Assembly (NCBI GenBank): GCA_016934015.1
Contig: JAFGTQ010000061.1
Location: 1 to 41,593, forward strand
DNA length: 41,593 bases
Reading direction: 5' to 3'
From: Acholeplasmataceae bacterium
GTDB lineage: Bacteria; Bacillota_I; Bacilli_A; Acholeplasmatales; Acholeplasmataceae
Shown here one piece after another: positions 20,674 to 26,367 of the stretch (positions within the stretch are counted from its first letter, which is position 1; each line of letters starts with the position of its first letter). The translations under genes and the position numbers were made by a program. The notes beneath the pieces were generated by a model, which worked only from the letters and a program-made list of their open reading frames with translations, made no database searches and had not been told where the DNA came from.

Positions 20674-21087
20674 TTAGGTATGAAAGTGTTTTACTTTTTC
20701 TTTTTTTATGATATTCACAAAATTTATAGCTTTTTCTAAAAACGCCATATTTTTATCGATTTCAAGTGTATGATTACTGAAAAATGTTATGATTATACCC
20801 TTTGGTGATGTATAAAACGCTTTTATTGCAGAATGATTAATCCAAATATTTTCATAATCTCTAATTCTCATGATTGGAATTAGCATCAGATCATTTGATA
20901 ATACAAGTGGTATACGCTGAGATTTATGATATTTTTTTTGTATGGCTTTAACATACCCATCATAAGTGATTAAATGTTCAATACAAAGACTATGAATGAT
21001 GGCGTTCATTGAATGTTTATGTTTACTAATATGGCTATCTTGATAAATATATGTCATTTGATGCTCATGTTTAATATATTCAATCAT
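20674..21087 (-). CDS. ComK-like transcription regulator family protein
   Basis: The middle and C-terminal parts resemble Bacillus ComK, the master regulator of competence. RIPLVLSNDLMLIPIM, then IWINHSAIKAFY, then ITFFSNHTLEIDKN occur in the order and spacing of the ComK core, and a helix follows. At 137 residues it is shorter than ComK (about 192) at both ends. The ATG at 21087 has GGAG 9 bases upstream; an upstream TTG would remove that spacing. It follows the msmX-type gene after a terminator and must start from a promoter I cannot see, or from read-through. The family call comes from motif memory, not a search. Confidence 0.6.
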   Translation of the reverse strand: MIEYIKHEHQMTYIYQDSHISKHKHSMNAIIHSLCIEHLITYDGYVKAIQKKYHKSQRIPLVLSNDLMLIPIMRIRDYENIWINHSAIKAFYTSPKGIIITFFSNHTLEIDKNMAFLEKAINFVNIIKKEKVKHFHT

Positions 21088-21097
21088 CTTTTTCTCC

Positions 21098-21120
21098 AAA
21101 AAAAAAGCCCGAAGGCTTTT
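21098..21120 (-). terminator. Intrinsic terminator of the msmX-type gene
   Basis: Stem AAAAGCC/GGCTTTT with a CGAA loop (21103-21109 with 21114-21120), and nine T on the minus strand. It overlaps the upstream side of the ComK-like ribosome site. Confidence 0.8.
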
Positions 21121-22280: not shown

Positions 22281-22303
22281 AAAAAAATGTGCAAAATGCA
22301 CAT
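22281..22303 (-). terminator. Intrinsic terminator of the htrA-like operon
   Basis: 7-bp stem ATGTGCA/TGCACAT with an AAA loop (22287-22293 with 22297-22303), and seven T on the minus strand. Confidence 0.8.
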
Positions 22304-22306
22304 ATT

Positions 22307-22882
22307 TTATGAAATCAGTTGATAGATAATAACTGCATCTTGAAACCTTCTGACATCAAACCCTGTTTCTTGTAAGAACTTATCAAGTCTTTGAATTAAA
22401 GTATTACGGTGAATATAAAGTTCTTTAGAAGCTTTTGACATATTTTGATCATTTTCAAAATAAATATTCAGTGTATCGAGCATCATATTATCTTTCGCGT
22501 ATTTTCTTAAAAATTGTTCTTTTAGTATCGTTTTTGAAAGATGCATGATGGATTTTAAAACTTTTTGATCATTTAGAAATGGGCCAATCTTTTTTGGAAC
22601 TAGTTCAATATAAGAACTAATAAAGTGATAATGTATCATCAATTCATCTAGATTTTCAAAATAGAATGATTGATATAATACCAAATCATAGAGAGTATCT
22701 GAAAGCATATTTAATGTGATTTCTTCAAAATCCAGTTCATCATATCCTTCGTAAATAAAAAGTGCTGAATTATCATTTTGAGTCATATCAATCACATGTA
22801 CAAGAGACATAAATAAAGCATTTAAATCTTGTTGAATATCTGTCATATCATGAACACTCTTTATATAGATAAAGCGTTTCAA
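22307..22882 (-). CDS. PucR-type helix-turn-helix protein
   Basis: A probable transcription regulator. The C-terminal 55 residues match the PucR/CdaR HTH_30 pattern: LDTLNIYFENDQNMSKASKELYIHRNTL... then FDVRRFQDAVIIYQLI. The first about 130 residues are an unrecognised domain. The likely start is TTG at 22882, with AAAGGAAGTGA 7 bases before it and overlapping the upstream TGA. The ATG 18 codons earlier lies inside the pseudoprotease gene. It is the last gene of the protease operon, so it may regulate, or respond to, the surface protease pair. Ligand and targets are unknown. Confidence 0.75.
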   Translation of the reverse strand: MKRFIYIKSVHDMTDIQQDLNALFMSLVHVIDMTQNDNSALFIYEGYDELDFEEITLNMLSDTLYDLVLYQSFYFENLDELMIHYHFISSYIELVPKKIGPFLNDQKVLKSIMHLSKTILKEQFLRKYAKDNMMLDTLNIYFENDQNMSKASKELYIHRNTLIQRLDKFLQETGFDVRRFQDAVIIYQLIS

Positions 22883-22886
22883 AAAA

Positions 22887-23639
22887 TCACTTCCTTTCCA
22901 GTTGATGATAGTTTGTAATGACATTCGTAATGGCATCTAAAGTGATGATAACTGATTTACCTTCTAACAGTTCCGTTTGTAAACCCACCAGTTGAAGTTG
23001 ACTATTCATAATTGCTCCACCATGGCTTAATTCATCTGAAGGTATGGATGTATAAATAAGATTTAAGTCAGACCGATAGTTTGTAATTAATCCCATCGAA
23101 GTTGCATTCTGAATTTTATAATGATTTCCTAGCAGCAATACAGGCTCACCAATCTTTGGTGCATATGTTGCCATATCAATCATGTCGTAGTGATAATATT
23201 TAGAAGTAATTGAAATGATTGTAATAGGTTCAATAAGGTCATCATAAATCTGAGTTGCTAAATGGGTATTGTTCATATAATCAATAGCACTAATAATAAC
23301 TTTTTGACCAATTAATTTATTGGTTTGGTTTTGATCAATTAAAATAAAATATTCATCATCTACATGATCAAAAATTACCCCAGATGATATGCGTGTTTCA
23401 ACTAAAATATTTAAGTTCGAAAAAACACTAACCTCAATTTTTACAATGGATGGCATAACTTTAATCATGGCATCATTAATCAGTTGGTAAAATTGTTCTT
23501 CTTCGGATATATCATGATCAATATAAGCATCATATTGATTTGATAAATATTGAAAATCCTCACTTTTTTCTTCACCGATATACATACCACAACCACTTAA
23601 TAATAATATTAAACCAATAATAAGTATGAGTCGTTTCAT
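22887..23639 (-). CDS. Lipoprotein, inactive paralogue of the HtrA-like protease (pseudoprotease)
   Basis: A 250-residue lipoprotein with signal peptide and lipobox LLSGC (Cys17), so it is anchored on the outside of the membrane. It aligns without gaps with its upstream neighbour over the 54 residues after GVIF. The positions of the triad His97, Asp131 and Ser214 of the neighbour are here Asn104, Pro138 and Gly208. It is therefore a trypsin-fold protein without a catalytic triad. The Ser-region alignment is also gapless (SHGGAIMNSQLQLVGL). It overlaps the htrA-like gene by 4 bases (ATGA), so the pair is translated together. It may be a decoy, inhibitor or sensory partner; that is inference. 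Confidence 0.75.
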   Translation of the reverse strand: MKRLILIIGLILLLSGCGMYIGEEKSEDFQYLSNQYDAYIDHDISEEEQFYQLINDAMIKVMPSIVKIEVSVFSNLNILVETRISSGVIFDHVDDEYFILIDQNQTNKLIGQKVIISAIDYMNNTHLATQIYDDLIEPITIISITSKYYHYDMIDMATYAPKIGEPVLLLGNHYKIQNATSMGLITNYRSDLNLIYTSIPSDELSHGGAIMNSQLQLVGLQTELLEGKSVIITLDAITNVITNYHQLERK

Positions 23640-24436
23640 GATGCTGCCTCCTCATATTTAAAGTCATTGGCAAGCAAAAACTCTATAACTTTTTCTACAG
23701 GTATAGAAAATGAGAATGTCGAAAAATCTTCTGATTCACCAAAATTACCTGCAAATAAAATTCCAATCACTTGAAATTGATTGTTAACAACAACACTTCC
23801 ACTGCTACCTTGTTTTACAGGAGTATCTGAAACAATGACATCAAAGTCAACTTTTATAACATCAGATATGGGATTACTGATATTGACATTTTGATAAGAT
23901 AGGACTTTTCCTAATGTAATTGCATTAGCTTGTTCGTGCGGGTAACCTAAAATTGCTATTCGCTCATCAATCATAGGATTCTTCGATGAAAATATTAAAT
24001 TCTCAATTACTAAATCACCTTTAGGCATTTTTAAGACAGCTAGATCATATGAAGTATCACTTGCCAATAGGGTTGCAGTATATTTATTTCCTTGGTAATC
24101 ATACACAGAAAAATCGGTGCGACCTTCATTTTCTGAATAAGTCACATGATTATTTGTTAAAATAAAATAGTTTGTGTCATCTTGAGTGAAAATAACACCA
24201 GACCCTGTAGAGCTTGAAAATGGCATATAATTAATCGTCTCAATCTTAACAACACTTAAAATCGTTCTGGTTGAGAGCGTATTATAATAATCGATTTTAG
24301 ATTGATAATCCTCTTTATAATATTCAAGATGCGTTGTAAATTCAAGATCGAGATCTTGATAAGTTTTTATTCCTTCACAACTCGATAAAGTAAATGTAAA
24401 TAAAATAATAACCCATAGTGCAAATAATTTCTTCAT
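23636..24436 (-). CDS. HtrA/DegP-like trypsin-fold serine protease, lipoprotein
   Basis: An extracellular membrane-anchored serine protease. The 266 residues have a signal peptide, lipobox FTLSSC (Cys20) and a trypsin-like domain. The triad is His97 (FILTNNHVTY), Asp131 (SYDLAVLKM) and Ser214 (KQGSSGSVVV). No PDZ domain follows, unlike DegP and HtrA. It ends in TGA. It leads an operon with the inactive paralogue and a PucR-type HTH protein. AAGGTGATGCC precedes the ATG. A weak promoter overlaps the suf terminator. Confidence 0.85.
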   Translation of the reverse strand: MKKLFALWVIILFTFTLSSCEGIKTYQDLDLEFTTHLEYYKEDYQSKIDYYNTLSTRTILSVVKIETINYMPFSSSTGSGVIFTQDDTNYFILTNNHVTYSENEGRTDFSVYDYQGNKYTATLLASDTSYDLAVLKMPKGDLVIENLIFSSKNPMIDERIAILGYPHEQANAITLGKVLSYQNVNISNPISDVIKVDFDVIVSDTPVKQGSSGSVVVNNQFQVIGILFAGNFGESEDFSTFSFSIPVEKVIEFLLANDFKYEEAAS

Positions 24437-24476
24437 GGCATCACCTTATTGCTATTTTACGCTATTTTGTAGAAAT

Positions 24477-24503
24477 AAAAAAGATATGAGCATTCATATC
24501 TTT
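24477..24503 (-). terminator. Intrinsic terminator of the suf operon
   Basis: Perfect 10-bp stem (24480-24489 with 24494-24503), GCAT loop and a T-rich minus-strand tail from A 24477-24482. Confidence 0.9.
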
Positions 24504-24518
24504 ATTTTTTCATTAAAA

Positions 24519-25928
24519 TTAACCAATTGACCCTTCCATCTCCAATTTAATCAACTGATTAAGTTCAATCGCATATTCCATTGGAAGTTCTTTTGCAAAT
24601 GGTTCAATAAATCCCATAACAATCATTTCAGTGGCTTCTTCTTCGGTTAACCCACGACTCATGAGATAGAATAATTGCTCTTCACTGATTTTTGAAACAG
24701 TGGCTTCATGTTCTAGGAATACATCACTATTTCTCACAATGTTTGTCGGTATGGTATCACTAAATGAATAATCATCTAAAATAATCGTATCACATTCTAC
24801 ATGGGCTTTAGCACCTTTCGCATTTTTACCAAAATCAACTTTTCCACGATAATTGACTGATCCACCACCACGACTAATCGATTTAGAAATAATGGTTGAA
24901 GTCGTGTTAGGGGCCACGTGAATCATTTTAGCTCCTGCATCTTGAATTTGATTTTTTCCAGCAAAAGCAATCGAGATTGTTGTCCCTTTTGCCCGTTCTC
25001 CAAGAAGAACACAAGATGGATACTTCATATTGACACTACTTCCAATATTTCCATCAATCCATTCCATATGCCCGTTTTCATAAACAAAGGCACGCTTAGT
25101 GACTAAATTAATAACATTAGTAGACCAGTTTTGAATGGTTGTATAACGACATGTTGCATCTTTTTCAACAATAATTTCAACAATTGCGGCGTGAAGTGAA
25201 TCCCTTGAATAAACAGGGGCGGTACAGCCCTCAACATAATTCACTGAAGCACCTTCATCGACGATAATTAATGTTCTTTCAAACTGTCCCATCTGATCAG
25301 AATTAATTCTAAAATACGATTGTAAAGGCTTTTCAACTTTGACACCTTTAGGGACATAAATGAATGATCCACCACTCCATACAGCGCTGTTTAATGCTGC
25401 ATATTTATTATCATTAAATGGAATTATCTTACCAAAATATTTTTTAACTAAATCTGGATGTTCGCGAAGTGCAGTATCTGTATCTACATAGATAACACCT
25501 AATTCATCTAATTCTTTCATTGTGTTATGATAGACAACTTCACTTTCAAATTGTGTCGATACACCAGCTAAATAATTACGTTCAGCTTCGGGGATTCCTA
25601 ATTTTTCAAAAGTTTCTTTAATTTCAATCGGGACCTCATCCCAACTTGTCTCAGCTCGATCACTTGCTCTTAAAAAATATGTAAAATCATCAAAATCGAT
25701 AAACGAAAGATCTGGACCCCAGGTTGGATTTTTCAATTCTAAAAACTTTTTATAGCTTTTTAAACGAAAATCAAGCATCCACTCAGGCTCACCCTTCATT
25801 TTCGAGATCGTTCTTAATTTATCTTCATCAAGCCCTTTTCCGGTATCATAAACTGGCTTTGATTCTGTGTGGAACCCAAACTGATAATCACCGACAATGG
25901 CATCTATTTTCTTTTTGTTATCATCCAT
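24519..25928 (-). CDS. sufB: Fe-S cluster assembly protein SufB
   Basis: SufB is the scaffold of the SufBCD complex that assembles Fe-S clusters in the cytosol. The 469-residue protein has the beta-helix core and the conserved [17 protein letters not shown] region, and ends in [16 protein letters not shown]. The start at 25928 has AAGGAGGAAG upstream and the last 8 bases of sufU overlap it. An upstream start (frame open to 25991) is less likely. It is the last gene of sufCDSUB. Confidence 0.98.
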
Positions 25929-26367
25929 GTTGTTCTTCCTCCTTAATTTTTTTGATTCCTTGTTCCACCGCTTTCCATGCCAGTGTTGCACATTTTATAC
26001 GTGCGGGAAACTGTGAAACTCCTTGATAAACAATTGCATCTCCTTTAAGAATTTCCGGATTATATGGATATCCTTTAATGAGCTCATAAAACTCTGATAT
26101 GATTTTTATGGCTTGATCAATGTCTTGACCTTTTAATGTTTCTGTCATCACACTCGCACTTGAACAACAAATAGAACACCCAGTACCTTGATGTCTTATA
26201 TCATCTATTTTGTGGTCTTTAACATGCATTTGTATGGTCATCTCATCACCACAACTTGGATTATTCAAATGGATCATCAAATAGCTTGAATCTGCAACCA
26301 AACCTTTATTTTTAGGATGCTTGTAGTGGTCCATAATCACTTGACGATAAAGTTGTTCAATGTTCAT
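25921..26367 (-). CDS. sufU: Fe-S assembly sulfur carrier SufU
   Basis: A zinc-bound sulfur-transfer partner of SufS in Firmicutes. In 148 residues the ligands are at Cys39 and Asp41 (NPSCGD), Cys64 (GTGCSICC) and Cys126 (RIKCATLAW). Two extra cysteines follow Cys64, at 67 and 68, where I expect Ser-Met-type residues. It overlaps sufB by 8 bases and follows sufS by 10 bases. Confidence 0.95.

Follow-up and report, generated by a model that had tools for sequence, protein, structure and literature searches.

A lipoprotein HtrA-fold serine protease and its catalytically dead paralogue: a conserved and probably cooperating gene pair of Acholeplasmataceae

Two overlapping genes, here termed A and B, were analysed in contig JAFGTQ010000061.1 of an Acholeplasmataceae bacterium (assembly GCA_016934015.1; genome of ~1.17 Mb in 77 contigs; nearest named relative, Acholeplasmataceae bacterium UBA6181). 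The whole stretch of 41,593 nucleotides is called the window. Gene A encodes a serine protease of the HtrA fold, and gene B encodes a paralogue that retains the fold without the catalytic residues. B is probably a dedicated non-catalytic partner of A, as a subunit or a cofactor, which arose from one duplication in the stem of its clade. The same live and dead proteins occur side by side in 32 genomes. They apparently arose once, sister genomes have the site without the pair, and the rates of the two co-evolve strongly. The pair had first been noticed in a reading of the nucleotide letters without database searches (the sequence-only reading).

The two open reading frames and their ATGA overlap on the minus strand are as the sequence-only reading had described them. 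Its claim of paralogy was confirmed, given that B matches A in its own genome (E = 3.7e-8) and that the profile of A orthologues aligns with the profile of B orthologues over almost the full length (probability 100%, E = 8e-43). The lipoboxes claimed for both proteins are also present (LSSC20 in A and LSGC17 in B). The pair was searched for in 88 genomes of the family and was present in 32 genomes of five Acholeplasmataceae genera, at 33 loci with the same gene order; G077, where a fragment of B lies at a contig end, was left out of the counts. Two loci in G023 are seemingly identical, and the 33 loci thus provide 32 distinct pairs. These two copies of the whole locus (L083 and L097) lie ~99 kb apart, and they may be an assembly duplication because the stated contamination of this genome is 7%. 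The overlap is exactly 4 nt in 32 of the 33 loci (TTGA in one); in L081 it is 8 nt if an internal ATG is taken as the start. No genome was seen with A alone or B alone at the locus, G077 being cut by the contig end. Profile searches were extended to the order (160 genomes) and the class (296 genomes). Outside the five genera, they revealed no full-length B orthologue, for which scores start at 205 bits, and only generic HtrA-like matches, none above 119 bits. A scan of genome contigs added two close relatives only.

A scores well above the cut-off of the Pfam family Trypsin_2 (78 bits; cut-off 27.6) and matches HtrA proteases in the PDB, and its triad consists of H97, D131 and S212. Residues 210–214 (G210-S211-S212-G213-S214, GSSGS) align with GNSGG of HtrA, thereby identifying Ser212 as the nucleophile; the sequence-only reading had His97 and Asp131 right and misplaced the nucleophile by two residues, at Ser214. 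The triad and the lipobox Cys are complete in 32/32 distinct A orthologues. The AlphaFold2 (AF2) model, built from a 32-sequence alignment, has a predicted local distance difference test score (pLDDT) of 89.4 and matches HtrA-family protease domains. Profile searches detected no PDZ domain in A or in B, and the same genome encodes a separate PDZ-containing HtrA (L003). A falls far below the cut-offs of the mycoplasma MIP/DUF31 families (Mycop_pep_DUF31, 21.9 bits against 27; Ig_SerProt_MIP, 19.4 against 125).

In B, residues N104, P138 and H206 face H97, D131 and S212 of A. Asn and Pro had been correctly read at the first two sites, whereas the Gly assigned to the third is wrong; the counterpart of Gly208 of B is Ser214 of A, which is not catalytic, and B proteins have G, S or A at this position. 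Across the 32 distinct B sequences, the His site holds H in one and D, E, N, S, Q and others elsewhere, the Asp site holds D in none and mostly G, and the Ser site holds S in one and mostly N. Two or more of the three triad residues are kept in no sequence (0/32). Loss of the triad among relatives had been set as a check beforehand, and no full triad was encountered. The glycine flanking the nucleophile site (Gly213 in A and Gly207 in B) and other fold positions are conserved. B of the window alone scores 20.1 bits against Trypsin_2, under the cut-off, and all 32 B orthologues match this family at E ≤ 0.01, some of them above the cut-off. The AF2 model of B, also from 32 sequences, has a pLDDT of 91.7. 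The structure predictions that the sequence-only reading had proposed for each protein thus yielded two confident HtrA-type protease folds, and both models match the protease domains of DegP, DegS and HtrA1 with E ~1e-13. B is a pseudoprotease in that the protease fold is kept, the catalytic residues are consistently lost and the gene is under purifying selection.

Two helices lie between anchor and barrel in both proteins, and the helix residues Q35, Y39, D43 and F50 are conserved in B and not in A. These four residues are candidates, and no more, for contact with A. Alternative catalysis or metal binding by B was considered and rejected, since no conserved Ser, His, Lys or mature Cys was found among the 32 B orthologues and no His reaches 70% conservation.

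The locus is syntenic in nearly all genomes, in the order sufC-sufD-sufS-sufU-sufB, A-B-pucR, and then genes for an ABC ATPase, a ComK-like protein, pgk, an XRE/cupin protein, a small protein and tpiA (pgk, the small HPr-like protein and tpiA were named by reading their sequences). In seven sister genomes (G012, G018, G021, G081, G083, G084 and G085), sufB is joined directly to pucR without the pair. On the tree of SUF proteins, the distribution of the pair requires two changes, namely, one gain in the clade stem (SH-like approximate likelihood ratio test, SH-aLRT, 98) and one loss, in G011, which removed A and B together. The A sequences group in one clade and the B sequences in another (96 and 99), and the two clades are sisters (93); these and the SUF tree are quick trees without bootstrap, and some rows have long branches. 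Duplication and triad loss therefore most likely occurred once, before the five genera split, and gain or loss affects the two genes together. A mobile origin was rejected because the locus is syntenic and the pair follows the SUF tree.

Purifying selection acts on B. The ratio of nonsynonymous to synonymous substitution rates (dN/dS, method NG86) is 0.04–0.28 for B and 0.04–0.17 for A, with dS close to saturation in distant pairs, and it is below 0.11 in both genes for the most similar pairs. A decaying pseudogene or a recent redundant copy would agree with the missing triad and with the faster evolution of B, and it is barely credible against 32/32 distinct full-length orthologues in five genera, a dN/dS far under 1 and a confident predicted fold. 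Decay was rejected on conservation and dN/dS. The sequence-only reading had argued against decay, and its view is upheld by the same three lines of evidence; the disabling mutations in sister genomes that it named as counter-evidence were not seen, every B being full-length with dN/dS well under 1.

The rates of A and B change together. Relative rates along the branches were compared for 55 gene pairs with the species tree of 19 genomes kept fixed, and the A–B correlation of 0.85 was the highest (0.82 on terminal branches only). PucR and the ComK-like protein, two neighbours that evolve about as fast, gave 0.49–0.57 with A or B. Partial correlation of tree distances was 0.83 for A–B, against 0.29–0.52. 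This co-evolution favours, without proving, a physical or tight functional partnership between A and B and cannot distinguish an activator from an inhibitor.

Several observations weigh against a partnership. Proteins that are exposed alike or serve the same function can also have correlated rates without touching each other. With a tree length of 15.1, against 9.9 for A, B evolves ~1.5 times faster, and no common new function can be read from its old active site because the positions drift. The lipobox Cys is present in 31/32 B orthologues; in B of G087 (L066:4843-5559, minus strand) Val replaces it, and this protein would consequently be held by its hydrophobic N-terminus. The rate difference and the freely drifting site would suit an independent surface lipoprotein that binds a ligand or peptide, does not act on A and stays beside it by operon inheritance only; MamO likewise has a dead protease domain with an acquired, unrelated binding function (PMC4794232). 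We regard this explanation as improbable, given that neither gene stands alone at the locus in any genome (with G077 cut by its contig end), that G011 lost both genes together and that the A–B rate correlation exceeds those of A or B with other neighbours.

The arrangement of signals suggests joint production of the two proteins (Table 1). The hairpin upstream of A, the promoter-like TAGCGTAAAATA, the Shine–Dalgarno-like (SD-like) motif in the end of A and the hairpin past pucR indicate that A, B and pucR are probably one transcript, with B coupled to A. A terminator-like hairpin lies between B and pucR in just 2 of 31 loci, and pucR comes after B in the relatives with contigs long enough. The core TAGCGTAAAAT is exact in the corresponding gaps of 18/30 relatives, and GTA[AG]AAT occurs in 28/30. 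A genome-wide search with TAGCGTAAAATA in its own genome returned one exact match and one near match upstream of an unrelated gene; the element may therefore be no private operator but an ordinary extended -10.

Table 1. Features of the pair and its borders, in positions of the window
Feature	Positions	Strand	Basis
sufB, at the end of the SUF iron-sulphur operon; borders the insertion site of the pair on the upstream side	24519..25991	minus	synteny, empty sites
Terminator-like hairpin with T run, in the sufB–A gap	24474..24503	minus	-8 kcal/mol; in 29/30 loci
TAGCGTAAAATA, promoter-like (-10-like) element directly upstream of the A ribosome-binding site	24453..24464	minus	motif conservation
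AAGGTGA, A ribosome-binding site	24441-24447	minus	sequence
Gene A, lipoprotein trypsin-like (HtrA-fold) serine protease, 266 aa, without PDZ domain	23636..24436	minus	Trypsin_2, PDB HtrA relatives, AF2
GAGGAGG, B ribosome-binding site inside the 3' end of A	23647..23653	minus	sequence; SD-like motif there in most relatives
ATGA, overlap of A stop and B start, 4 nt	23636..23639	minus	sequence; 4-nt overlap in 32/33 loci
Gene B, lipoprotein pseudoprotease, paralogue of A, 250 aa	22887..23639	minus	Trypsin_2 in orthologues, AF2 fold matches
pucR, PucR-type helix-turn-helix regulator, after A and B in the probable operon	22307..22936	minus	HTH_30, 57 bits
Terminator-like hairpin ending the A-B-pucR unit	22287..22303	minus	scan; between pucR and ABC gene in 27/28 loci

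The proposed course of events is as follows. One tandem duplication in the stem of the Acholeplasmataceae clade would have produced A and B; A would have retained the HtrA-type serine protease domain without PDZ, and B would have lost the entire triad in the stem while retaining the fold and the lipid anchor. The short A-B-pucR operon, presumably co-transcribed, would make both proteins, with B translationally coupled to A. Judging from the lipoboxes, both would be exported and lipidated, and would be held at the external side of the membrane. There, B may bind A in a physical complex, perhaps as an HtrA-like hetero-oligomer, and either set the activity of A or deliver substrate to it. No observation suggests that the pair acts on a host target.

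Obligate pairing, coupling and co-evolution would fit equally well if B were a paired inhibitor whose binding to A would shield the surface proteins of the cell itself until B is displaced, and the production of B right after A resembles that of an immunity-like partner. This possibility is considered unlikely: the alignment contains no inhibitory feature such as a reactive loop or a pro-peptide-like insert, B has kept its fold in full and has not been cut down to an inhibitory portion, and MamO, the precedent in the same fold, activates (PMC4794232). By analogy with the action of MamO on MamE, a helping role of B through activation or substrate recruitment appears more likely than inhibition. 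A further, tentative extension of the partnership, which we do not expect to hold in full, is that A and B form an obligate hetero-oligomer with protease activity on the cell surface; A would be inactive or unspecific until joined by the dead B, and the PucR-type regulator would adjust the amount. Such a protease would be a lineage-specific, HtrA-fold enzyme made of two subunits.

Other features of the locus were also recorded. The start of pucR is probably a TTG at 22882, directly past B, which gives a protein of ~191 aa like those of relatives. A functional tie of the pair to SUF iron-sulphur assembly was rejected; the adjacency of A to sufB is probably incidental, because the terminator-like hairpin parts the two genes in 29/30 loci and no metal ligands are conserved. 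A ~240-aa protein with a hydrophobic N-terminus (cluster c13) is encoded on the opposite strand directly before pucR in some genomes, with the pair present or not (L080; L081, in the gap between B and pucR; L122; L123), and the sufB–pucR junction looks like a repeated insertion point. The ComK-like protein (20674-21099, minus strand; Pfam ComK, 27.6 bits, cut-off 22.3) is encoded two genes past pucR, within a block conserved in these wall-less bacteria; its changes in rate and those of the PucR-type regulator show a correlation of 0.63.

The pair was compared with known systems. HtrA proteases are usually homo-oligomers. The HtrA/Do/DegS proteases (S1C) share the protease-domain fold with A and B and the triad with A; they differ in that B lacks the triad (0/32) and that neither A nor B has a C-terminal PDZ domain. 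Their typical oligomers offer a model for an A:B hetero-oligomer. The nearest precedent for the pair is MamE/MamO of magnetotactic bacteria, an HtrA protease and a pseudoprotease in which MamO promotes proteolysis by MamE without a triad of its own (PMC4794232). As with A and B, live and dead homologues of the HtrA fold are encoded in one gene cluster. MamO-type proteins have a C-terminal TauE-like domain and a surface di-histidine metal site, whereas B is a small lipoprotein of 250 aa in which neither a second domain nor a conserved His is present; relatedness beyond the common fold family is not claimed.

In the MIB-MIP system of mycoplasmas, a surface serine protease works with a non-proteolytic partner that delivers the substrate (PMC12994834). 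MIB is an immunoglobulin-binding protein and not a paralogue of its protease, and A fails the MIP/DUF31 cut-offs; MIB-MIP resembles the pair in its logic and not through descent, and in this sense it is the closest analogue among mollicutes. CspC and CspA are soluble germination proteins with a subtilisin-type protease fold. In Clostridioides difficile, they are dead proteases retained with a signalling or cofactor role in a proteolytic pathway (PMC12880746). Insect clip-domain serine protease homologues are dead proteases that serve as signalling or cofactor proteins (PMC10540698), and they differ from B in being animal clip-domain proteins. In the literature searched, no paper was found that pairs 'pseudoprotease' with 'Mollicutes', and A and B may therefore be the first such pair described in this class. 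Partnerships of proteases and pseudoproteases are already known, and the A/B pair is an unusually well conserved new variant. It offers a small, PDZ-less system for testing how a dead paralogue controls a live HtrA-fold protease.
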